From positions 1 to 52,763 of IMG/VR virus record IMGVR_UViG_3300025133_000147: 52,763 nt of DNA; one strand, given 5' to 3'. The notes under the pieces were generated by a model. The model was not told the DNA's origin. It saw only the letters and a list, made by a program, of their open reading frames with translations, and searched no databases. Positions within the stretch are counted from its first letter, which is position 1; the number at the start of each line of letters is the position of its first letter. This DNA comes from a virus. Below, one piece after another: positions 8,897 to 39,282 of the stretch. The translations under genes and the position numbers were made by a program.

Positions 8897-11800
8897 ATGC
8901 CTCAAGAATTCTCCAGTGACTCGGAGATCGTGTTTGATTTTTCTGGGGGGGATCCTCCACCCCTGGCGGCTCAACAGGCACCGCCTGATGATGAGATTGT
9001 TTTTGACTTCTCTTCTCCTTCGGTTGAGGCTCCTCCTTTAGGAGTGGTGGGTCCTGAGCCGCCTAGCGATGAGATCGTTTTTGACTTCTCTCCACCTAAA
9101 GACCCTGGCGGCTTCGGAGTATCAGGCCCAGCCATCCCTGGATTGGATGTCACAGCTGGGCACATCACCAGCCTTCCTGACACCCTCCCTATGGAAGCTC
9201 CAGACTCCCTTAAGGCAGAGCCAGGGAAGCACAGCCTAGACTATCTAAACAGTGCCCTACGTCGTGCCGCCATTAAGTACAACAGGACCCGTGACCACGA
9301 TGAGAGGGTTCAGATCTTAGGCAAGTTCATCAGGGACTGGGACCCAGACAAGGCAGAGGCTCTAGGTATATCTAGAGAGGGCTACATCGAGCCCACTGGT
9401 CTGTGGAAAGTCCTCGACGTTGTGGACATTATCTTTGATCGCTGGGCTCGCGTAGCTGGTGAGACTCTCTGGGAGCACAAGGAGACTAACGCTGCGAATG
9501 TCCTAGCTGGCAAGGAGAAGGCTGGCATTGGGAACCTGGGTCATCTCTGGAAGCAGAACTGGGAAGAGGACAAGGGGCAGCTAGGCAAGGGTGGAGAAGC
9601 CATTAAGAACTGGGCTCTCTACATGACTACGCCCTTTGGCATCGACACTCAGGAAGAGGCTGAGGAGATCTTCAACCGCAGCGCTGGGTACGACGCGGCA
9701 GAGCAGGACGTTGCTGACAGCATCACCTCTGGCTGGCACAACATGATGGGGGTCGTGAAGGGGCGCTCTAGGGAAGAGACTGAGTTCATCATTGATGAGG
9801 CTCTAGCTGCTGGTGGGACTGGCGGTCACATGGCTATCGACTTGGTTGGTCTCATGGGAGTGAGTTCCTTGAACTTCGCTGGGCTAGGACCATTCAAGGG
9901 AGCTATGCAGGGAGCGAGACTGGCTCCTCTGGCGAAGAACCTTACTCAGATGGGGCTCAAGATTAACCCTCTAGGTAACGCTAGGTCTGCGCGCCTTGAG
10001 ATGTCTGCCATGCCCCTGGCTAGAAAGTCCATGATTGACGAGCTTGAGGGTGTCGTCGTGGGGGCTGAGAAGGTTGGCCCACCGACAGAGGCTAGGGCTG
10101 CTCTTGATGAGCTTACTAGGTTGTCTAACGACATGGCAGCTGTGGAGACAGAGCTTAGCCAGATTCGTGGCTTGCGAGAGCGCGCACAGGGTGGTCGAGT
10201 TATTGACGAGATCGGGGATGTTGTCGATAAGGCTACTGCTACTGCTGCTGCAGCTGACTTAGACCGTAGAGCCGCTCCTCTAATAGAAAACTACAAGAGA
10301 CTCATGGGCGAGTTTGACGAGGGCTTCAATGCCTTGTCTGAGATTGGCGGGAAGGGTCGTATCCCTGGAGAGGTGCTCTTCGGTGGTATCCAGGCTCGCG
10401 CTATCGGCATCGTTGGAAAGGAGGTAGGGAACGCTGTAACCCTAGCCCTTCAGGGTGGGGTTAAGTCTGGCCCAGTAGGGGCTCAGTCTGTCCCAATGCT
10501 TGCAGACGCTAGAGCGTGGGCTCTGGAGGGTGGGCTGAGTGTCACCGAGGTAGAGAAGAAGTGGGTGGCTGCTCTTAAGGAGGGGGAGAAAAACAAGAAG
10601 GTTGTTGTAAGCCTGGGAGCCTCCGCTGAGGGTGGGCAGATTAAGACTGCTCCTGTCTGGCTGTCTCCTGGGGAGGCGCGTGTCTACGAGCAGGCTAAGG
10701 AGGGGCTCCACGGGTCGAAGGCTGCTGTTGCTGCTTACTACCCAGACAAGAAGATGCTCCAGCGCATGATGGGTAAGGAGAAGTTCGCCAGACTAGCTGA
10801 GCAAGCTGCTGATGAGATCATATCCGTTGCTCATGGTCGTGGCTTTGGAGGCTCAGGGAGAAGGGCTATAGCTGGTGGTGTGCGGGCTCTGAGAGGAAAG
10901 ACTAAGGCTGACACAGTCTTCCAGGCTGACCGCATTGTCACTAACGTCGAGCCTCTGACCTTCGCTATTAACCACGCCTTAATAAAGAAAGCAGCGTGGA
11001 TAGAATCTGTTCGCCTGCCTCTTGCTGGTGTGGCTTCTTTGTCTCGTCGTCCTATGCACTACGCGACTAAGGGTGCTGACGGTAAGTGGGCTCCTATTGC
11101 TAGGAAGGACCTCATCCATCCAGGCATGTTCCACAAGATGACTAATGCGGAGCGTCAGAGGAAGACGGATGCCGCTTACCTTCGGGCTCAGTGGCCTGTG
11201 TGGAAGGCTAGGTTTGAGGAGGCAGCAGGGGATAACCCAGAGCTTCTCAAGCTAGGCAGGCAGGCTTACGAGCTTGGTTGGGCTAGCCGTGAAGTTGCTC
11301 TAGCTACGGGTGAGGACATCATCAAGCTAGCCTCTGTAGAGAAGCTTAACGAGACAATAGACACGCTAGTTAGACTGGGTAAGGACGCAGACCTGGGAGA
11401 GGGTCGCATCCTGACTGTGCTGTCAAAAGACGATGTCCGTCAGGCTGAGGCTGCTATTGCTCACCTCCGTACAAACACGAAGATTGATACGAAGGTCTTT
11501 GAGGACTTGCTTGACGGCTACGTTGATATGACGGCTGGTGCGGCTAAAGACCTAGCTTCTCTTGCTGGTGGGCTAGGTGGGAAGGCAAGGGCTGAGTACC
11601 TAGAGGGTCTTAGGGCTCAGGCTCACTATCTCCTTGCTGCTGCAAAGGTGACTGTTGATGAGCGGATTGGGTTCCAGGCTGAGCTTGCTGTTGGCCGGAT
11701 AGCTGAGGACTTCAAGCCTGAGCTTAAGCACATCAGTGACGAGCTTGGGAAGATTCAGTCTCAGCTAGCCGCTACTACAGCTGACGTAGTTAAGGTTGAT

Positions 11801-14800
11801 GAGTCTGCTGAGCAACTTCGTGCTGCTCTCCTTGCTGTTGGTAAGGGCGGTGATGAGGCTGCAGCTGAGGCTCTTATCAAAGAGTCTGACGAGTTCGTCA
11901 ACGCTTACAAGAAGACTCTTGAAGACTTCAGGAGGTCTGTCGCTGAGGAGTTCGGTGACGAGGCAGCTGAGCTTGCTGATGAGGCTTTGACTGGGGCTAA
12001 GGAGGCTAAGGCTCTGGGTGAGCCTATCGAGGCAGTAGCGACAGTCGAGGGTGTGTCGTACCGCTCTCTGGAGGACAAGGTCAGAGAGGCCCGTGAAGAC
12101 CTTTCTCACATGGGGTACGACGCAGCCAGGATCCGAGAGGAACCGGATGTCCTTATGGGTCTTGAGAATGTTCGACCCCGCGTGGTCAGCATTGATGACA
12201 TCCCGGTTCAGGGCAACCTCTCAGCAGAGAAGTCTCGCAGGGCGGTTGAGTTCATTGAGTCTGGAGAGGAGGCTGTATTCCCACCTCGGGTAAACCTGAA
12301 CGCAGACGGATCGTTTCATAGCGTTAATGACGGTAGACACCGTCTTGAAGCTCTGCGAGCGATGGGTAAGAAGCACATCGTAATTGACGTAGAGCTTATG
12401 GCTAAGGTTGATGCCCCGCCAAAGGTTCGCTCTGCTGAGGCTATCCCAGGCACTGTCAGGGCTGTTGGCGCAGACATCTCCAGGGACGAGCTTGAGGACG
12501 TTTTCTGGGAGCTGTCCGGTATGGACGGGCAGCAGAAGCTAGTTGCTTGGATAGCAGAGAACTCTAATGTCCCTTCATACAGGGCGATAGCTAACAGGAT
12601 CTCCCCTTATGTGTCTGGAGAGTTTAGGGTCCTCAGGCCAGACCATACCTCTTGGAGTTACGCTGTTGATCAGGGCAGATCTGCTCTACGGAGGGGGGCA
12701 GATGGAGTCTTTGTCCATACGCCTGGCGAGCCCGGTGGATTTTTGGGGGTTAAGGGGTGGGGCAACCGTTACGCTGATGGTGGCGATGGGATCGCGTTAG
12801 AGGTGGCTCTCCATGAGCTTGTTCACAGTGCGACTATATTTCAAATCGAGAGGGGTCTTAGCGCGCCCAAGGGCAGCGCCCTGGCTAAGTCTGTTGAATC
12901 TCTTAGCGATTTAGCAGTAGACATCAGAGATGCTCTCGGACGAAGTCGGTCCTTTGACGACCTTCGGCACGTTGCACTCGATGACATTACAGAGCTTGTT
13001 GCTTACGGGCTTACGTCGCCTAAGTTTCAGGAAACGCTTAAGGGGATTAAGGTCGAGGGTGGAAAGACTGCGTTTAATAAGTTTGTTGACCTGCTGGCAG
13101 AGATCCTTGGGCTAAAGGGCAAAGAGGTAAGCGCGCTCTCTGAGCTGATAAGGGTGACAGACGAGATTCTTGATGCGCCGATTCCCGCTGCTAGGAAGTT
13201 CGACGGAGAAATTCTTCCTAAGTTTGAAGAGGCTCTTGATGTAAAGGCAGTTAAGACCACCCCAACAGTCCGCTCCCCCCTCCCTCTCTCTGACTCAGCC
13301 CAAGCCTACGTTGACTCTGTCCGAGTAGCTTGGAACACAGGAGACGAGGTCCCCATCACCTCTCTCTTCGACGCTATGTGGAGCAGGCTAGATAACGAGC
13401 TAGACCCAACGATGCTTGGGAAGAGGGACATGAGTGGGGTGAACCTCCCTGCGGGAGCCAAGGCTATCCTTACTAGGCTGGGGGACCTTAGTAAGAAGCT
13501 AGACGGCACTAACGCCTCGCTCATGAAGGCGCGTGCTGGTGATAGCGCTATCGACCTAGCTGAGGCAGAGGCTAACTACAACAAGGCTAAGACTGCATAC
13601 GACACAGCCAGGAGAAGTTACGAGCCAGTAAGAAGGCCAGACGGTTCCATCGTGTCTAAGGGCAAGGTCTACACCAACCTTCATGGTCTCAAGCTAGACA
13701 ACAAGCTCATCCACAAAGCTGGCTCTCAGGAGCGCCGCATCCTTGAGGCTCTAGAGCTTCACTACAAAAACAGGATGGCTTCTATTACATCTCATGTAGC
13801 TAATGAGGCTGAGGCTATTCGCAAGGCTTCTAAGGAGGCTCTCGCTAACCTCCCAGACAGCCTGATTAAGAAGGGCTTCGTCACTGCTGGAAGAGGGGAT
13901 GAACTCAGGGCTGCTGTAGATAAGTTAAGCGTGACTCTCTTCGGGCGAGACATATCAGTCAAGCTCCCTGCCACTAAGGACATGTCTGCTGACATCCTGC
14001 TTAAGAAGGCGGTAGCTAAGGCTCGTAGGTCTAAGGACCCCAGAGAGCGTGCTGCTGTGCTCATGGCAGAGATTGGGAAGATTGAGCAGAAGCTAGCTAA
14101 GGTTGGCGACGGTCTCCCTGAGAACGATCTAGCTGCGGCTATCAAGGAACTAGACAGGGCTCGCACTAAGAAGAAGGCTATGCCTAAGAAGGATGTCCAG
14201 ATTCATGTGGACAAGTTCCTTGATGAGATCAGAGATGCTGACTTCGACCTCCGTCACCCTGACGATGTCTCCCGTGCCATCGAGAACAGACTCACCTCTC
14301 AGTACAATGTGATTGAGTCTGAGAAGCTGCTGTTCAAGGCTAGGCTTGAGGCTCTTCGTAGCGCAGACATAGCTGACTACATTCCTAACTTGTCACCGGG
14401 TCAGCGTGCTCGCATTACCTCCTTGCTTAAGAATAAGAAGCTGAGGAACGTCCTGCCTGGAAGTGACGGTGGTCCTGCCATCCTCCTGAAGGACACTCAG
14501 AAGCGCCTGACTGCCGCTCAGTCGAGGCTGGCTAAGTATCTGGCTGATGGGGCAGAGGAGGCAGCTAGCAAGCAGAGAACGCTCGTTGCTGGGCTTGAGG
14601 AGCAGGTACGCATCCTTGGTAACGAGGAGGATGTTAAGCGAGTTGTCCATGTAGCTAAGGAGATGAAAGAGTTCTTCGACATGCACCTTGAGCGTCTTGT
14701 TGAGGCTGGTGTTATCGACAAGGCGTTTGACGCTGAGGAGTTCTTTGCCCGTGTTGACGTTGGTGCCTTCTTCCCTCACATCCTTTCTCAAGCTGCAGTT

Positions 14801-17275
14801 AAGAGGGCTGCTGGGTTTGGCGTGGGTGGTGCTGGTCGCATTGGTAGGAGTCTGGTTCAGTACTTCGGCAAGGAGCGGAAGATTGCTGGGATCATCGAGG
14901 ACATCAACGAGGGCAAGAGGGCTCTCCGTGCAGAGCAGCTTCTATTCCATGCAGCTAGGAGAGGTGCTCATGGTGAGGCTGCTGCTCAGGCTGCTGCTAA
15001 GGGCAGTGGTGAGCTTAAGAAGTTCATCAAAGATTCTGGGCAGAGTTATGACGACCTAGTTGACGAGATCAAAGAGGGCGCTCTCTTGGCTGAGTACGAT
15101 GAGTTGTTTGAGTCTGATGTCTTAGTCGCGATGGAGTACTACCACCGCAAGGGCTCAGAGGCTGTGGCTGACGCTAGGTTCATCAAGACCACGCTAGACC
15201 TGTTCCCTAATGGCAGGTTGATTGCTCAGATTGGCGATGTGAAGGCGCGCAATAGGGCGGCTGAAGACCTGGGCTACGTCCCTCTGGGTGAGGTCGAGTA
15301 CCTACAGTCTATCCTTCAGAAGCAGCTTCCTAAGGGGCTGAAGAGGCTGTCCAAGGACTTGAAGATGCGCGTGATAAACGGGGCTGACCTTGATGAGATC
15401 GGGGCTCTTGTCCGTGCTGAGCTAGGTCACGATGTCCCTGCTGATGTCTTGCATGCTCTGACTAGTGACAAGCTCAAGGTCCCCTATGTCCCCATTCAGG
15501 TGAAGGAGTACCTGAACTGGAGGAACTCCTCTGATGCCTTCCTGGCTAAGAAGACTGTGGGTACGGAAGTGTGGGATGGGCTGCAGGCGTGGGCTAAGGC
15601 GCAAGCTACTATCGTTGCTCTCGCTCACATCGGTCGTAACGTCATCGGCAACATCGTGTCTACGGTTCAGGAGATTGGCTTTGGGGCGGTCAACTTCGAC
15701 ACTCAGCTTAAGGCGATGCGTATCTGGGGCTCCTGGGGAGATGACAATCTAAAGGCTGTGATTAACATCGGCCCTCACAGCATGTCTGTTCAGGACTGGC
15801 GCAAGACCTTCTCGTCTCGCGGCTTCTACGACGAGGCTCTTTCCTCTGACTTCCTTGAGGAGGCCACAGGGCTCTCTCGCAAGGCAATCCCTACAGCTAA
15901 GCAGGTTGGTTCTCAGCTTGCTGGCACTACTGCTGGGGCTCTTACTGGCATGGCTCTGGGGTCTGCTTTTGGGGTTGGTGCTCCTGTCTTCTTCTTAGGT
16001 GGTGCTCTCGGCATGATGGCTGGCAAGCGTTGGTCTGGTGTGAAGGCTGTGCGTGGCGGGAAGACTTACAAGAGGATGGTTGGTGACGCAGTAGATGAGA
16101 TCAAGGCCTCTCCGAAAGAGGGGATCGTGCGAACAGGTGAGAAGATCACAGGCGGCGTAGCAGGCGGGGTCATTGGCTCAGCATTCTTTGGGGTAGGTGC
16201 TATCCCAGGAGCCTTCATCGGGGCTACCTCGATGGGAGACTTCGTCAAGATGATGGGTGGTCTGAACCAAGCCGCCGAGTCTCAGGCGAGACTCTCTATG
16301 GCAGTTGGTTTGCTGAAGCGTGGGGACGATATCGACACTGCTCTGATGAAGGTCAACAGGTCTCTTCGTGACTACTCAGACCTGACTCCCCTAGAGAAGA
16401 ACGTCTTCCGTCGCTTCTTCTTCTTCTATACCTGGGAGGCTGGCAACTTGAAGTACCAGCTGAACTGGATGAAGGAGAACCCAGGCACAGCAAGGATGCT
16501 CTCTGCGTTTACCAAGGGCATCTACCAGATGCAGTTTACTGAGGAGGACATCGCTAGACTCCCAGAGCATTACCGCTATCCAGTGGTTGTGCGTAGTGGT
16601 CCGGCTAAGGTCATCGCTCTGTCAGGACTTCCGCACCAGCCCATCCTTGAGTTGTTCAGGAGCAAGGAGGGCATGCCTATCCAGGGTCTCGCTACTCGGA
16701 TGAGCCCTCCTCTCCTTGCCTTCATGGAGATGACGTTTGGTGGGGGCAAGAGCTTCTACTACGGCAAGCCTATTAAAGAGTTGAACAACATCAACCAGCT
16801 TAAGGACTCTCCCCCTCTGCTTAAGATGATCTTCGGGTACCCAGACAAGCCAAACTACTACGTCCCTGTCTACAAGAATGGCGTTAAGACTGGGCGCACT
16901 AGAGAGGTTAGGAAGTCAGAGAATCCTGTGATGTTCTACATGGCTAAGAAGCTTCCAGGCTGGCGATGGATGAACCAGTACATGAACATCTCGTCAGAGA
17001 GTTTTAACAGTTATGCGTTAGAAGCTGCTCTTACTCCAGAAGATGAGGAAGCTGCTAGGGCTACTGCCTTTGAGCGCATGATGATGTTCACTGTGGGTTG
17101 GAGGCAGACTTCGATTGACTGGGACTACCAGGGATACAAGGTGAGCAAGGAGATGGAAGATCGAATGCTCGACATGTTGAACAGCCAGTTCCCGATGGCT
17201 GTGGGTCAGCGCAGGTACCTTCGTAAGAAACTTAGTGCCAGTCCTAACGAAACTGTTAGTGACGTGGAAGAGTAG
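8897..17275 (+). CDS. Giant polyvalent internal virion protein (ParB-like and metallopeptidase motifs)
   Basis: At 2792 aa this is the largest gene. Residues 10-16, 33-39 and 59-65 repeat EIVFDFS. Residues about 1091-1171 resemble a ParB/sulfiredoxin-like nuclease fold (VVSIDDIPV, then DGRHRLEALRAMGKK). HELVH at 1306-1310, followed about 55 residues later by ITELVAYG, fits a zinc gluzincin peptidase. Two Gly-rich hydrophobic stretches at about 2335-2390 and 2415-2450 look like membrane or glycine-zipper segments. They are followed by an aromatic motif (NVFRRFFFFYTWEAGNLK). This mixture is typical of large polyvalent proteins packaged in the head and ejected, like T7 gp16 in position. The enzymatic activities are predicted from motifs only. 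Confidence 0.8.
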   Translation: MPQEFSSDSEIVFDFSGGDPPPLAAQQAPPDDEIVFDFSSPSVEAPPLGVVGPEPPSDEIVFDFSPPKDPGGFGVSGPAIPGLDVTAGHITSLPDTLPMEAPDSLKAEPGKHSLDYLNSALRRAAIKYNRTRDHDERVQILGKFIRDWDPDKAEALGISREGYIEPTGLWKVLDVVDIIFDRWARVAGETLWEHKETNAANVLAGKEKAGIGNLGHLWKQNWEEDKGQLGKGGEAIKNWALYMTTPFGIDTQEEAEEIFNRSAGYDAAEQDVADSITSGWHNMMGVVKGRSREETEFIIDEALAAGGTGGHMAIDLVGLMGVSSLNFAGLGPFKGAMQGARLAPLAKNLTQMGLKINPLGNARSARLEMSAMPLARKSMIDELEGVVVGAEKVGPPTEARAALDELTRLSNDMAAVETELSQIRGLRERAQGGRVIDEIGDVVDKATATAAAADLDRRAAPLIENYKRLMGEFDEGFNALSEIGGKGRIPGEVLFGGIQARAIGIVGKEVGNAVTLALQGGVKSGPVGAQSVPMLADARAWALEGGLSVTEVEKKWVAALKEGEKNKKVVVSLGASAEGGQIKTAPVWLSPGEARVYEQAKEGLHGSKAAVAAYYPDKKMLQRMMGKEKFARLAEQAADEIISVAHGRGFGGSGRRAIAGGVRALRGKTKADTVFQADRIVTNVEPLTFAINHALIKKAAWIESVRLPLAGVASLSRRPMHYATKGADGKWAPIARKDLIHPGMFHKMTNAERQRKTDAAYLRAQWPVWKARFEEAAGDNPELLKLGRQAYELGWASREVALATGEDIIKLASVEKLNETIDTLVRLGKDADLGEGRILTVLSKDDVRQAEAAIAHLRTNTKIDTKVFEDLLDGYVDMTAGAAKDLASLAGGLGGKARAEYLEGLRAQAHYLLAAAKVTVDERIGFQAELAVGRIAEDFKPELKHISDELGKIQSQLAATTADVVKVDESAEQLRAALLAVGKGGDEAAAEALIKESDEFVNAYKKTLEDFRRSVAEEFGDEAAELADEALTGAKEAKALGEPIEAVATVEGVSYRSLEDKVREAREDLSHMGYDAARIREEPDVLMGLENVRPRVVSIDDIPVQGNLSAEKSRRAVEFIESGEEAVFPPRVNLNADGSFHSVNDGRHRLEALRAMGKKHIVIDVELMAKVDAPPKVRSAEAIPGTVRAVGADISRDELEDVFWELSGMDGQQKLVAWIAENSNVPSYRAIANRISPYVSGEFRVLRPDHTSWSYAVDQGRSALRRGADGVFVHTPGEPGGFLGVKGWGNRYADGGDGIALEVALHELVHSATIFQIERGLSAPKGSALAKSVESLSDLAVDIRDALGRSRSFDDLRHVALDDITELVAYGLTSPKFQETLKGIKVEGGKTAFNKFVDLLAEILGLKGKEVSALSELIRVTDEILDAPIPAARKFDGEILPKFEEALDVKAVKTTPTVRSPLPLSDSAQAYVDSVRVAWNTGDEVPITSLFDAMWSRLDNELDPTMLGKRDMSGVNLPAGAKAILTRLGDLSKKLDGTNASLMKARAGDSAIDLAEAEANYNKAKTAYDTARRSYEPVRRPDGSIVSKGKVYTNLHGLKLDNKLIHKAGSQERRILEALELHYKNRMASITSHVANEAEAIRKASKEALANLPDSLIKKGFVTAGRGDELRAAVDKLSVTLFGRDISVKLPATKDMSADILLKKAVAKARRSKDPRERAAVLMAEIGKIEQKLAKVGDGLPENDLAAAIKELDRARTKKKAMPKKDVQIHVDKFLDEIRDADFDLRHPDDVSRAIENRLTSQYNVIESEKLLFKARLEALRSADIADYIPNLSPGQRARITSLLKNKKLRNVLPGSDGGPAILLKDTQKRLTAAQSRLAKYLADGAEEAASKQRTLVAGLEEQVRILGNEEDVKRVVHVAKEMKEFFDMHLERLVEAGVIDKAFDAEEFFARVDVGAFFPHILSQAAVKRAAGFGVGGAGRIGRSLVQYFGKERKIAGIIEDINEGKRALRAEQLLFHAARRGAHGEAAAQAAAKGSGELKKFIKDSGQSYDDLVDEIKEGALLAEYDELFESDVLVAMEYYHRKGSEAVADARFIKTTLDLFPNGRLIAQIGDVKARNRAAEDLGYVPLGEVEYLQSILQKQLPKGLKRLSKDLKMRVINGADLDEIGALVRAELGHDVPADVLHALTSDKLKVPYVPIQVKEYLNWRNSSDAFLAKKTVGTEVWDGLQAWAKAQATIVALAHIGRNVIGNIVSTVQEIGFGAVNFDTQLKAMRIWGSWGDDNLKAVINIGPHSMSVQDWRKTFSSRGFYDEALSSDFLEEATGLSRKAIPTAKQVGSQLAGTTAGALTGMALGSAFGVGAPVFFLGGALGMMAGKRWSGVKAVRGGKTYKRMVGDAVDEIKASPKEGIVRTGEKITGGVAGGVIGSAFFGVGAIPGAFIGATSMGDFVKMMGGLNQAAESQARLSMAVGLLKRGDDIDTALMKVNRSLRDYSDLTPLEKNVFRRFFFFYTWEAGNLKYQLNWMKENPGTARMLSAFTKGIYQMQFTEEDIARLPEHYRYPVVVRSGPAKVIALSGLPHQPILELFRSKEGMPIQGLATRMSPPLLAFMEMTFGGGKSFYYGKPIKELNNINQLKDSPPLLKMIFGYPDKPNYYVPVYKNGVKTGRTREVRKSENPVMFYMAKKLPGWRWMNQYMNISSESFNSYALEAALTPEDEEAARATAFERMMMFTVGWRQTSIDWDYQGYKVSKEMEDRMLDMLNSQFPMAVGQRRYLRKKLSASPNETVSDVEE

Positions 17276-32283: not shown

Positions 32284-32487
32284 TTAGACGATGGTGCCGA
32301 TAATGATGCGAGGTGCCGCGACCTTCTCTTGAACGTGTGCCACACACACGTCGTCCTCGTTAGTCTCTCCGTCGCAGTAGTCCGCGACAGACTTTGCCGC
32401 CTCAATGGCTTGGTCTAATACTTCAGACGGGTCAGCGTCAGTGTGGATGATGAAGGTCACTTTGAAGGTGCAAGAAAAATCGTCCAT
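32284..32487 (-). CDS. Small early protein, unknown
   Basis: A 67-aa protein with a beta strand-helix-beta strand pattern (CTFKVTFIIHTDADPSEVLDQ, an acidic loop, then VAAPRIIIGTIV). It is the first gene after the strong minus-strand promoter at 32,532-32,560. The ferredoxin-like outline suggests a small binding protein. Confidence 0.6.
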   Translation of the reverse strand: MDDFSCTFKVTFIIHTDADPSEVLDQAIEAAKSVADYCDGETNEDDVCVAHVQEKVAAPRIIIGTIV

Positions 32488-32531
32488 GTCTTATCTCCTG
32501 TTAGTTGGTGGAGGTATGTCCACTGCTTACG

Positions 32532-32560
32532 AATATAGCACTATGCCATAGCCGTGTCAA
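32532..32560 (-). promoter_or_regulatory. Strong sigma-70-type promoter on the minus strand
   Basis: TTGACA, 17-base spacer, TATATT (minus strand), in a 114-bp gap between genes. Ten of twelve or more consensus bases match, making it the best promoter in the window. The start would lie about 40 bases before the 32,487 gene; host RNA polymerase is the likely reader because no phage polymerase is encoded. Confidence 0.8.
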
Positions 32561-35091: not shown

Positions 35092-35970
35092 CTAGCTGGC
35101 GCGCAGCTTGCGGACTTCGCTCTTGACTTCGGCGGTCACTTCGTCGCAGCGAGCCTCTACCATCCCTAGGATGATGCGCTCAAGCTCCGCGACTGACGGA
35201 GCGCCTAGGATGTTCATGACCTTTTGACGAGCCTCGTTAGTTCCGAAGTCGAGGGTAGCCTTGCTCCCGCCCTTGCTCTCCTCGTCGCTGTCCTCGCCCT
35301 TAGCTGCCCGCGTCAGGGCGACCGAGATGTTAGACGAGCCCGTCGCGAGTGCCTCAAACGCTGCGAGCTTGCTGTCAAGGTAGGAGATGTTTGACGCTGC
35401 TCCACCGATAGGACGGACACTCGCGACGCCACGCTCCCACACGACGACAGGCTCAAAGCCTAGCAAGGACAGAGCGATGCTGACCTTGCCACGCTTGACG
35501 CCATAGGTTTGGAATTGCGTGTGGCCCTTCGTCTTCAGGTGCTCAACTTGCGTCTTGCTCAGGCCCTTCCCGTGCTGAGCTGCGACTACGGCACAACCGA
35601 TAGCGACTTGAAACACGGCACCCTCGTGGTCACATGAGAATCCTTCAGGAATCTCTAGCAGCCAGATAGGCAGACCATTCTCGTCCTCCTCGCGGCCGAG
35701 TGTGGTCTTGACGCGGGCAAGGCCATCGGTGGGATTCTCCTTACTCCACACGGACTGGCCAGGACCAAAGGTCACGTGAGCGGTGGGCGACACAGAGAAA
35801 GACTCTCGGAACGTGGGAGTCTTGCGTAGACGGTTCAGGAACATCGCAGCCGTCTCCTCTAGACGGGTCACTCGCTTGCCGCGGTTCGCCTTTTGAGTGC
35901 TGGCCTCAAAAGAGGAGTAGGCGGTCTTCTTGATTCCGGTCGTCTTGTTCTTGTTGGTGTTGGTAGGCAT
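35092..35970 (-). CDS. First minus-strand early protein, unknown function
   Basis: A 292-aa protein, the promoter-proximal gene of the minus-strand region. Lys/Thr-rich N-terminal tail (TNKNKTTGIKKTAYSSF), a central beta-rich domain (HVTFGPGQSVWSKENP, then WLLEIPEGFSCDHEGAVFQV) and an Ala/Gly-rich C-terminus ending in a charged helix (RCDEVTAEVKSEVRKLRAS). No catalytic motif is clear. Being first after the control region, it may be the earliest and most expressed product, possibly a DNA-binding protein. Confidence 0.6.
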   Translation of the reverse strand: MPTNTNKNKTTGIKKTAYSSFEASTQKANRGKRVTRLEETAAMFLNRLRKTPTFRESFSVSPTAHVTFGPGQSVWSKENPTDGLARVKTTLGREEDENGLPIWLLEIPEGFSCDHEGAVFQVAIGCAVVAAQHGKGLSKTQVEHLKTKGHTQFQTYGVKRGKVSIALSLLGFEPVVVWERGVASVRPIGGAASNISYLDSKLAAFEALATGSSNISVALTRAAKGEDSDEESKGGSKATLDFGTNEARQKVMNILGAPSVAELERIILGMVEARCDEVTAEVKSEVRKLRAS

Positions 35971-35986
35971 GTTTTCTATCTCCTAG

Positions 35987-36010
35987 TTATTTATTCCGTA
36001 AAATAAATAA
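35987..36010. repeat. TTATTTATT leader hairpin, copy 5
   Basis: Nine-bp stem TTATTTATT with AATAAATAA around CCGTAA, abutting the ribosome site of the 35,970 gene. Same stem as 34,700 with a different loop, which supports selection for the stem. Confidence 0.75.
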
Positions 36011-36047
36011 GGTTTGTTTGTTGGCTCATGGCCGTGTCAACGTCGTG

Positions 36048-36076
36048 TTGACCTCAGAATTGTTGCACATTACCAT
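36048..36076 (+). promoter_or_regulatory. Candidate sigma-70-type promoter, plus strand
   Basis: TTGACC, 17 bases, TACCAT. Its -35 is one arm of an inverted repeat (GTCAAC-GTCGT-GTTGAC at 36,036-36,052) whose other arm carries a minus-strand TTGACA, so a repressor could control both directions. The minus-strand box has no convincing -10. Confidence 0.35.
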
Positions 36077-36087
36077 TGCATATGCAT

Positions 36088-36105
36088 CGGGCATAAAACT
36101 GCCCG
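36088..36105. repeat. Six-bp GC hairpin
   Basis: CGGGCA and TGCCCG around TAAAAC, 16 bases before the first sigma-54-like site. Confidence 0.55.
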
Positions 36106-36121
36106 GTTGTAATTGATAAAC

Positions 36122-36137
36122 TGGCATAGCTCTTGCA
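36122..36137 (+). promoter_or_regulatory. Sigma-54-like promoter sequence 1
   Basis: TGGCATAGCTCTTGCA matches the -24/-12 consensus (TGGCACG-N4-TTGCW) at all key positions: GG and GC are ten bases apart. The surrounding ATTGAT and GCAAGGG are repeated at copy 2. It points toward the plus-strand replication genes. Confidence 0.5.
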
Positions 36138-36244
36138 AGGGAGAAATCATGGGCTAGGGCCCGAACCACCAAAAGACGACACGGGATAGGCGCTTATAGG
36201 AGACGCGCGTGGGAGAGGTCGTATCCTTCATAGGTAGTACGCGT

Positions 36245-36284
36245 GTTCGGTAGTTGTTGGGTGGTGTTCGGTATACGTTCGGTA
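36245..36284. repeat. Iteron group 1: three GTTCGGTA
   Basis: Exact GTTCGGTA at 245, 266 and 277, spaced 21 and 11 bases, so all lie on one helix face. Likely binding sites for an initiator or regulator. Confidence 0.65.
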
Positions 36285-36517
36285 ATACCCCTACTTTACA
36301 TATTCTTGACAGTGCAATGTGGCATGCAATGTGCATAACAGCGTTGCACGACCTCTGTAAGTACCTGAAATCATTAAGGAAAAAGCTAAAATCGATCCTA
36401 GTCGATTCTAGGGGTCCTAGGTCCAATGCAAGGGCAGAATGCAAGGAACGGCCTCTCAGGGCCCTTCTCGACGATTTAGCATTACCTTAGCAATGATTAA
36501 CATTAGATTGATTATTC

Positions 36518-36533
36518 TGGCATGGCGCTTGCA
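36518..36533 (+). promoter_or_regulatory. Sigma-54-like promoter sequence 2
   Basis: TGGCATGGCGCTTGCA fits the sigma-54 consensus even better (only C to T at one position). It lies 396 bp from copy 1 in the same orientation, with matching flanks (ATTGAT upstream, AGGG downstream). Confidence 0.5.
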
Positions 36534-36569
36534 AGGGCAATTTTCAGGCCGATACCGGGGCTGAGGGCT

Positions 36570-36640
36570 GTAGACGAGTGACTACAGCGGAGCGTTCGGT
36601 AGTCGTTCGGTAGTGGGTGTATTCGTAGTCGATTGACTAC
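36570..36640. repeat. Pair of 16-bp palindromic sites flanking iterons
   Basis: GTAGACGAGTGACTAC at 570 and GTAGTCGATTGACTAC at 625 agree at 14 of 16 bases; the second is a perfect 6-bp inverted repeat. They are 55 bp apart and enclose iteron group 2. Likely dimer-binding operators. Confidence 0.65.
36594..36612. repeat. Iteron group 2: two GTTCGGTA
   Basis: Exact GTTCGGTA at 594 and 605, 11 bases apart, repeating the spacing of group 1. Confidence 0.65.
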
Positions 36641-36679
36641 ACTAGGTGACCCGTATCGAGGCAGACGCGAGAGGTCGAA

Positions 36680-36719
36680 CCCACCCCCCAGGGGGGGTCG
36701 TGGGCTGTATATATATTTA
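36680..36719. other. GC hairpin followed by AT-rich tract
   Basis: CCCAC plus a C6 tract faces a G7 tract plus GTGGG (680-704), followed directly by TATATATATTTAT (707-719). Could serve as a DNA-unwinding element next to the iterons or as a promoter -10 area. Confidence 0.45.
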
Positions 36720-36868
36720 TGCCAGATAAGCACCCACGGATACTGTGTCATCACATAGGCCAGGTAAGCATGGGCAGTGACTATGTCAGCTTATTAACTG
36801 CGTAGTTACTGTGACAGCGTGTAATGAATGCTAGGTTCGTCTACAGTTGGTGAAGAGGAGACACATTG

Positions 36869-37072
36869 ATGACTAGTGATGCTGCTGAGAGCCCTGTGAA
36901 TGCCTATAGGTTCGCTTTGACTGCTGTGAGCCTAGGCAGGACACCTGATGAGGCCTTCCAGGCTCTTCTAGACGCCTTAGAGGCTGATGCTAGAGAAGCT
37001 ATTGATGAAGAGGTGTCTTATGCAGAGTTTGACTACTTCACGATGGAGACTTTAGAGACTCCTGAGGGATAG
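36869..37072 (+). CDS. Small acidic early protein, unknown
   Basis: 67 aa from the ATG at 36,869 with GAGGAG eight bases upstream. It is acidic and helical (ALTAVSLGRTPDEAFQALLDALEADAREAI) and is the first plus-strand gene downstream of the control region, with a 470-bp gap after it. A regulator of the control region is possible, but no HTH is visible. Confidence 0.55.
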   Translation: MTSDAAESPVNAYRFALTAVSLGRTPDEAFQALLDALEADAREAIDEEVSYAEFDYFTMETLETPEG

Positions 37073-37341: not shown

Positions 37342-37370
37342 TTGACTGTGTCGGCGTAGTGTAGTACTGT
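37342..37370 (+). promoter_or_regulatory. Candidate promoter for the replication operon
   Basis: TTGACT, 17 bases, TACTGT, placed after the candidate terminator and 175 bp before the 37,544 gene. The -10 is poor. Confidence 0.4.
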
Positions 37371-37543
37371 GGTTGAGTCGTTAGCTTGTAAGAGCACGCG
37401 CCAGCCTATGTGGCCTCCTTGGGATAGCTTCCTGAGGAGGTCAGGCTGAGCAGCGGACTTGTAGTGCTGATGATTAGGCTGGTCTTCTTATTGAAGGCTT
37501 CTTTCGTTGATGCTCTTTGTTGGGCTTAGTGTGGAGTTGTGTG

Positions 37544-38002
37544 ATGGATACGACAGATCCTTTAGTTATTTCTGGTTTCATGAGTGAGCATTGGGGTCGT
37601 AAAGCAGGAAACCCTGCTTCACTCCCTACTTGGGTTAGGCATGCTCAGAAGATCTTCCCTGACGTAGACCTACTCGCTGAGATACGTCTAGCGATGATGT
37701 GGGAGATGGAGAGGCCAAGTAGAGAGAAGAAGAACGTCAGGATGTTCATGTCTCGCTGGTTTAAGCGGGCTCAAGAGAGCGCAGAGAAGAAAGGCAGAGG
37801 GACTGTTGTTGTCTCTATTGACTCAGCTAGATGGCTGAAGAGGAACAACAGAAAGCCTGAGCTAAAGCTAACTAGGTGGATGGACAGCAGAGGGCCACTC
37901 ACTGAGGAACTCATTAAGAAGTACTGCTCGTACTACGGTGTCCCTGCTCCTGATGACATAGACGTTGTTGTCTCTATCTACAACGTGAAGGCAGGTGCGT
38001 AG
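37544..38002 (+). CDS. Replication protein, possible helicase loader/replisome organiser
   Basis: 152 aa from the ATG at 37,544 (GGAG seven bases upstream). The segment PSREKKNVRMFMSRWFKRAQ resembles the small C-terminal domain of DnaT-like and phage replisome organiser proteins, which contact helicase and single-stranded DNA. Its stop overlaps the GTG of the DnaB-like gene (TAGTG), as expected for a loader-helicase pair. No ATPase motif, so it is not DnaC-like. The role is inferred from this motif and linkage. Confidence 0.6.
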   Translation: MDTTDPLVISGFMSEHWGRKAGNPASLPTWVRHAQKIFPDVDLLAEIRLAMMWEMERPSREKKNVRMFMSRWFKRAQESAEKKGRGTVVVSIDSARWLKRNNRKPELKLTRWMDSRGPLTEELIKKYCSYYGVPAPDDIDVVVSIYNVKAGA

Positions 38003-39282
38003 TGGCTTTTGACTCAGAGAAAGCCATCCTCGCTCTTTGCTTGAGGAGCCCCATTGTTGTTGATGAAGCTACTGCTGTTGGAGTTAAGAGAGACCACTTC
38101 TCCTCTCCTACTCACCGCTTGTTCTGGTCTGCCTTTGTAGAAGACAGAGAGAGAGGCGTCGGCCCAGACAGAGCCACTCTGACTGAGCGGTTCGCTGACA
38201 ACGTGGGGGACAGAAGGCACTTCACTGACTGGCAGCACTTCGGGAAGGTGGTGGACGACATCACCTCTGTCCCTGCTATCAGGAAGAACGTAGAGCACTA
38301 CGTCTCTAACGTGATTGAAACGGCGCGTAGGCAATACATGGTTGATGCGGCTAGACGTATCCTTGACCACGAAGAGAACGGCTCCCCCTTCTCTGAGCTA
38401 ATTAAGCTGTCGAGCACCATCACAAACCTAGCCTCCTGGGCTCCTGAGGGCCGTTCAGAGCCACGGACAGCCCACGACATCACTAAGGACTACCTAGACG
38501 ACCTACAGGCCCAGAGGATGGGCTTGAAGACGAACACGCTTATCTCCACTGGTATCCCTGCTCTAGACAGCATCCTCAAAGTCAGACCTGGGCAGATGGT
38601 GATTATCGGTGGCAGGCCCAAGATGGGTAAGAGCGCTGTGATGATGACCCTTCTCTCTAACATCGCTAGATACAACGGGGCTCCTACGCTCTCTATCAGT
38701 GCTGAGATGAACGAGATGCAGATTGGAGAGAGGATTGCGATGTCTGAGGCGAACCTAGGAGAGACCGCAGAAGACCTAGAGGGAGTTAGAAGTAAGATCT
38801 TGTCTCGCTGGGACGGTCTGCCTGTCTATTACGACGATAAACCTAAGAGCCTAGGCGCTGCTCTCATGTCTATCCGCATGCAGAAGAGCAATCTAGACAT
38901 CTGTGCCGCTGCAGTGGACTACCTACAGCTTCTGAAGCTCCCTAAGGAGAACAGCAGAGAGCGACAAGTGGCTGAAGCTAGCTCTGCCTTCAAGAGACTG
39001 TCTATGGAGCTTAATATTCCTATCTTTGTGCTCGCTCAGCTGAACCGTAGCTGCGAATACAGGGAGAATAAGCGCCCCATGCTCTCAGACCTTCGTGACT
39101 CAGGCCAAATTGAGCAAGATGCAGACGCTGTCATCTTCGTTTACCGCCATTCCATCTACGATGAGGACCATGAGCCTGTCTCTGACCTTGAGATGATCGT
39201 AAGAGCCCAGAGAAACGGTCCTACAGGCACCGCTCACTGCTCTTGGGAGCCCGGTAACGGCTGGATAACGAGCAGACGATGA
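38002..39282 (+). CDS. DnaB-type replicative helicase
   Basis: A 426-aa protein, GTG start. Residues 1-100 are the helical DnaB N-domain (FDSEKAILALCLRSP). The RecA-like C-domain carries Walker A GGRPKMGKS at about 203-211, SAEMNEMQIGERIA (H1a-type motif), Walker B AAVDYLQLLK at about 304-313, VLAQLNRSCEYRENKRP and the GQIEQDADAVIF arginine-finger/H4 segment. It unwinds DNA at the phage fork. With no phage polymerase or primase visible, it probably recruits host primase and polymerase III. Confidence 0.95.
   Translation: MAFDSEKAILALCLRSPIVVDEATAVGVKRDHFSSPTHRLFWSAFVEDRERGVGPDRATLTERFADNVGDRRHFTDWQHFGKVVDDITSVPAIRKNVEHYVSNVIETARRQYMVDAARRILDHEENGSPFSELIKLSSTITNLASWAPEGRSEPRTAHDITKDYLDDLQAQRMGLKTNTLISTGIPALDSILKVRPGQMVIIGGRPKMGKSAVMMTLLSNIARYNGAPTLSISAEMNEMQIGERIAMSEANLGETAEDLEGVRSKILSRWDGLPVYYDDKPKSLGAALMSIRMQKSNLDICAAAVDYLQLLKLPKENSRERQVAEASSAFKRLSMELNIPIFVLAQLNRSCEYRENKRPMLSDLRDSGQIEQDADAVIFVYRHSIYDEDHEPVSDLEMIVRAQRNGPTGTAHCSWEPGNGWITSRR

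Follow-up and report, generated by a model that had tools for sequence, protein, structure and literature searches.

Two -24/-12 sequences in the main control region of an uncultured phage are predicted from sequence to be functional sigma-54 promoters, and we regard this reading as probable. The sigma-54 assignment was proposed in an earlier note on this DNA. It is upheld in so far as the sites of related phages lie in the equivalent region, change mostly outside the -24/-12 core and include one full consensus; the accompanying proposal that the sites tie the replication genes to sigma-54 is not.

The window is the whole stretch of DNA analyzed, 52,763 bases that make up the complete IMG/VR virus entry IMGVR_UViG_3300025133_000147. 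The entry has no annotated host, and we take its habitat to be probably marine from the IMG/VR metagenome datasets that supply many of its relatives. Similarity and profile searches show that it encodes a terminase, a portal, a DnaB-like helicase, a Holliday junction resolvase, an AAA_24 ATPase, a PD-(D/E)XK nuclease and a muramidase. A single ORF at 8897-17275 encodes 2792 aa and is probably a giant virion protein. The record holds no tRNA genes as a host clue, and alignment of the terminase against 84,980 bacterial and archaeal species genomes gave zero matches. The remote relatives of the terminase (27-29% identity to Roseobacter phage CRP-7 and a phage from a spring metagenome) and of the capsid (23-24% identity to Myxococcus phages Mx8 and Mx9) do not fix the host, and host assignment by this route was dropped. 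In a DNA search, GenBank phages matched only over a short segment of the helicase, so the search yielded no cultured phage with the same control region.

Two strong -24/-12 sequences in the control region

The sites and the region that holds them are as follows.
35971..36868, no strand: non-coding control region of 898 bases in the ORF map; holds both sites.
36121..36137, + strand: sigma-54-like site 1, CTGGCATAGCTCTTGCA (exact sequence); predicted RNA start near 36147.
36319..36335, + strand: degraded third sigma-54-like site, GTGGCATGCAATGTGCA, a candidate only; score 21.5.
36517..36533, + strand: sigma-54-like site 2, CTGGCATGGCGCTTGCA; predicted RNA start near 36543.

The two 16-mers picked out in the earlier note, TGGCATAGCTCTTGCA at 36122-36137 and TGGCATGGCGCTTGCA at 36518-36533, are both present on the + strand in the same orientation, each with the GG-N10-GC spacing that had been described. 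The flanks match as well. The stretch common to the two sites is 21 nt long, CTGGCAT(A/G)GC(T/G)CTTGCAAGGG, with 90% identity, and ATTGAT stands 3-4 nt upstream of each copy. The 21-nt repeat that holds both 16-mers is CTGGCATRGCKCTTGCAAGGG.

Weights for scoring were preset before the scan from the published sigma-54 consensus YTGGCACGRNNNTTGCW, which is said to come from Barrios et al. 1999. Site 2 scored 24.5 out of 25.7 and ranked first in the window, and site 1 ranked second at 23.5 out of 25.7. Departures from the consensus are a T for C at one position in both sites and an A for G in site 1. The GG and TGC elements of sigma-54 promoters are confirmed by PMC3844500. The genome-wide motif scan that had been suggested returned two matches in the record to the strict pattern TGGCAYNNNNNTTGCW (TGGCAY-N5-TTGCW) and none to the reversed control. 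Shuffling of the control region with dinucleotides kept (n = 2000) gave a mean of 0.004 matches at this score, and two such sites appeared in 0 of 2000 shuffles; the mean for shuffles of the whole window was 0.33 matches at the site score. With three mismatches allowed, 6 matches were found where 4.9 were expected, which is no excess; the two exact sites alone are exceptional.

The third site, at 36319, had not been listed before. It lies midway, 198 bp from site 1 and 198 bp from site 2, and keeps GG-N10-GC with G instead of T as the first base of the -12 element. We considered whether the 198/198 spacing arose by duplication of a longer unit and rejected this, since the sites have only 21 nt in common and the other repeats are spaced differently.

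Homologous sites in related phages

Helicase and terminase searches led to about 30 related contigs. The clade with the sites consists of four sequences, namely the window, L005 (99% helicase identity), L012 (73%) and L031 (73%). Because L031 was retrieved with the site pattern, its inclusion is biased with respect to its second site, at 1511; the site at 1311 was outside the retrieval query. The corresponding control region of L031 contains two sites with the GG-N10-GC spacing: TTGGCACGGCTATTGCT at 1311, which matches the full consensus, and CTGGCATAGCACTTGCA at 1511. A scan of 1.18 Mb of phage DNA gave 14 distinct sites scoring at least 23, five of which point rightward in the control regions of this clade, and the L031 site at 1311 is the best of the 14. 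Alignment of L031 with the window pairs 1511 with site 2 and 1311 with the degraded site at 36319. The two sites stand 200 bp apart in L031; in the window and L005 the distance is 198 bp.

Counterparts of site 2 are found in L005 at 2558, in L012 at 182 (CTGGTATGGCCATTGCA, whose -24 element has a single change, GGTA for GGCA) and in L031 at 1511. Differences are concentrated outside the core: 1 of 24 core positions differs (TGGCA plus TGC, 8 positions per site) compared with 12 of 27 at the other 9 positions (Fisher p = 0.001, an approximate value from three homologous comparisons that are few and have sequences in common). Between the window and L031, 19 of 21 positions of site 2 are identical, as are 27 of the 40 bases upstream and 15 of the 40 downstream. 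Site 1 occurs in the window alone; the L005 sequence differs to the left of about 36165.

In L034, the contig of L001 with an 83% identical left gene, the intergenic region is shortened and holds no site. Among relatives whose helicases are 63-67% identical, the preset weights gave no strong site; this is weak evidence that sites are absent, since with these weights the -24/-12 promoters annotated on the coding strand of Pseudomonas phage YuA are missed too. Scans independent of the sites, with the GC/AT element described below and with the block between the sites, recovered no further clade member except L034. Sigma-54-like matches in L032 and L033 were discarded as lying inside coding sequence of an unrelated phage. 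The minus-strand site TTGGCACGGCACCTGCA of L012 was considered as a leftward promoter and dropped for want of a counterpart.

The bases next to the -12 element bear on the main rival reading.
36138..36141, + strand: AGGG directly 3' of site 1 (TTGCAAGGG), also found after site 2; within the 21-nt repeat.
36534..36537, + strand: AGGG directly 3' of site 2; kept in L005, L012 and L031 and outside the sigma-54 consensus.

The repeat could be an operator for a phage or host DNA-binding protein, with the core TTGCAAGGG or the whole 21 nt recognized and the likeness to sigma-54 incidental. We consider this unlikely, although AAGGG is not required by sigma-54, lies outside its consensus and is invariant in sites 1 and 2 and in the sites of L005, L012 and L031. 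GCAAGGG occurs three times on the + strand in the window's control region, three times in L005 and twice in L012, and the region has other operator-like repeats, GTTCGGTA and GTAGTC-N4-GACTAC. Against an operator, AAGGG is present in five of the seven sites compared, and the two that lack it, the full-consensus site of L031 (its best, TTGGCACGGCTATTGCTTACAG) and 36319, match or approach the sigma-54 pattern. The variation falls in the sigma-54 spacer, and GCAAGGG is not rare in the window as a whole (14 on the + strand and 7 on the - strand).

Layout of the control region

Further elements of the region and its flanks are listed here.
35092..35970, - strand: 292-aa gene with no assigned function, left of the control region; 83% identity in L001 and 34% in L031.
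36245..36284, + strand: first cluster of GTTCGGTA iteron-like direct repeats, period about 11 bp.
36594..36612, + strand: second cluster, direct repeat GTTCGGTA-GTC-GTTCGGTA; not found in L012 or L031.
36625..36640, no strand: dyad GTAGTC-N4-GACTAC, with a near copy at 36570-36586.
36679..36724, no strand: the region's most conserved element, a GC-rich inverted repeat with TATATATATTTATGCCA after it.
36869..37072, + strand: 67-aa ORF, the first conserved gene downstream of the sites.

The region is flanked on the left by the divergent 292-aa gene and on the right by the 67-aa ORF. The divergent layout is also seen in L031, even though its left gene is only 34% identical. Homologues of the 67-aa ORF have 56-66% identity within the clade and 34-47% in other relatives; PHROG and Pfam searches gave no family match for it. 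No Rfam families were found in the control region. All five copies of GTTCGGTA in the window fall in the two clusters, and L012 and L031 have other dyads instead. The GTAGTC dyad is recognizable by reading in L031 (GTAGTCAGTTGACTAC) and L012 (GCAGTCAACCGACTAC). The GC/AT element at 36679-36724 is identical to L031 at 38 of 47 positions, is also present in L001/L034, L005 and L012, and is a possible replication origin element.

Two further readings concern a replication origin, and both accept sigma-54 polymerase at the sites. It is improbable, but conceivable, that a tandem pair of sigma-54 promoters, spaced 198-200 bp, sends transcription into or across the origin, so that a host activator responding to host physiology would gate the start of phage DNA replication. 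Slightly less probable still is that the sites bind sigma-54 polymerase but serve mainly to mark or activate a replication origin, with transcription passing through the iterons and the GC/AT element. This second proposal would account for the lack of a conserved ORF within 320 nt downstream of site 2 and for what lies just downstream, iteron-like repeats and a GC-rich inverted repeat adjoining an AT-rich stretch; it is opposed by a GC skew without a clear switch and by L034, which has the GC/AT element but no sigma-54-like site. Chance resemblance is the least probable reading, for while motif matches alone are common, weaker sites occur in many phage genes, three mismatches bring no excess and site 1 is not conserved, no shuffle produced two such sites and homologous sites recur in diverged relatives.

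A probable separate promoter for the replication operon

Two features lie beyond the 67-aa ORF.
37342..37370, + strand: sigma-70-type promoter TTGACT-17-TACTGT, just upstream of the replication operon.
37547..39282, + strand: 151-aa gene and DnaB-like replicative helicase (helicase by similarity); gene order kept in relatives.

The -35 element TTGA(C/T)T is found in the window and in every one of the 12 relatives compared, also where sigma-54-like sites are lacking. At 17-18 bp from it stands a -10 element that reads TAxxxT in most relatives (TACTGT in the window, TATAGT in L031, TATACT in L014) and CAxxxT in two. A generic promoter scan did not list the window copy at 37342, whose -10 is poor, so the case for this promoter rests on conservation. 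The most likely interpretation of these sequences is that the replication operon has a sigma-70 promoter of its own. This counts against the earlier proposal that sigma-54 governs the replication genes, and any effect of the sigma-54-like sites on them is probably modest because of the separate promoter. The two kinds of element share a region, a direction and the genes downstream; the sigma-70-type promoter is common to all relatives compared, whereas the sigma-54-like sites are not.

A conserved leader precedes the 151-aa gene at 37342-37500, with TTGACT followed by a conserved GGTAGCTCC stretch. It is possibly a structured leader RNA; a search against Rfam gave no match.

Predicted mechanism and comparison with phage YuA

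Under the favored sigma-54 reading, the sites at 36121 and 36517 would act as promoters in tandem for the sigma-54 form of host RNA polymerase, and the degraded site at 36319 is probably a third member of the set. Transcription would run rightward from the main control region through a long leader (about 326 nt) into the 67-aa ORF, with possible read-through into the replication operon. Transcription by sigma-54 polymerase depends on an activator that is driven by ATP and sensitive to host state. The polymerase would be held in the closed complex, awaiting activation by a host enhancer-binding protein from an upstream site. We infer that sigma-54 polymerase binds and transcribes from these sites and that a host activator is used. 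The sigma-54 layer would be an extra control confined to one lineage.

Searches of the record gave no matches to the sigma-54 activator domain PF00158, no GAFTGA motif and no sigma-54 DNA-binding domain PF04552. The record encodes neither protein, so sigma-54 and its activator would have to be the host's. Bacterial sigma-54 (RpoN) promoters have an activator and an activator-binding site; neither was identified for this phage. Enhancers of sigma-54 promoters often lie 70-150 bp upstream of the promoter and have no common consensus (PMC3844500). Dyads and repeats are present upstream of the sites, none of them assignable as an enhancer. The suggested link of the sites to nitrogen or stress state is unsupported.

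The closest known system is Pseudomonas phage YuA (Yuavirus), for which the original paper is reportedly that of Ceyssens et al. 2008 in J. Bacteriol. Both phages carry -24/-12 sequences, those of the present phage being predicted only. The YuA record (NC_010116) has three annotated high-activity -24/-12 promoters in the structural and lysis gene region, whereas the sites described here lie upstream of the replication arm, in the divergent control region. The YuA promoters have been examined by experiment; those of this phage are predictions from sequence. The searches made gave no sign of a close relationship between YuA and this phage. PMC5053324 reports a strict dependence of YuA development on host sigma-54 and presents such use by phages as rare, though with precedents. 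Such control is rarely described, and YuA is a precedent for it. Phage sigma-54 promoters are a known kind; this case is set apart by its lineage and by the placement of the sites in the control region before the replication arm. When the preset weights were applied to the YuA fragments, the best coding-strand scores were 18.7, 17.0 and 15.7, with one of 22.2 on the opposite strand; because the annotated coding-strand promoters were not recovered, the score should be taken as an imperfect guide.

If the sites work, the early control region of an uncultured phage lineage has come under host sigma-54. Infection could then depend on host state through a host-responsive activator, and the host must carry rpoN, which would be a clue to its identity.

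Other elements were noted in the left arm. A near-consensus sigma-70 promoter, TTGACA-17-TATATT, lies at 32525-32560 on the - strand, upstream of the gene at 32284-32487. Several left-arm genes on the - strand between 31340 and 36005 are preceded by short repeated elements just before their ribosome-binding sites, namely a dyad, TTATTTATTC-GAATAAATAA, and the element CTTAGAAGTTAAAACC. The left gene of L031 is preceded by another dyad, ACTTTTACTTTCAAGAGTAAAAG.
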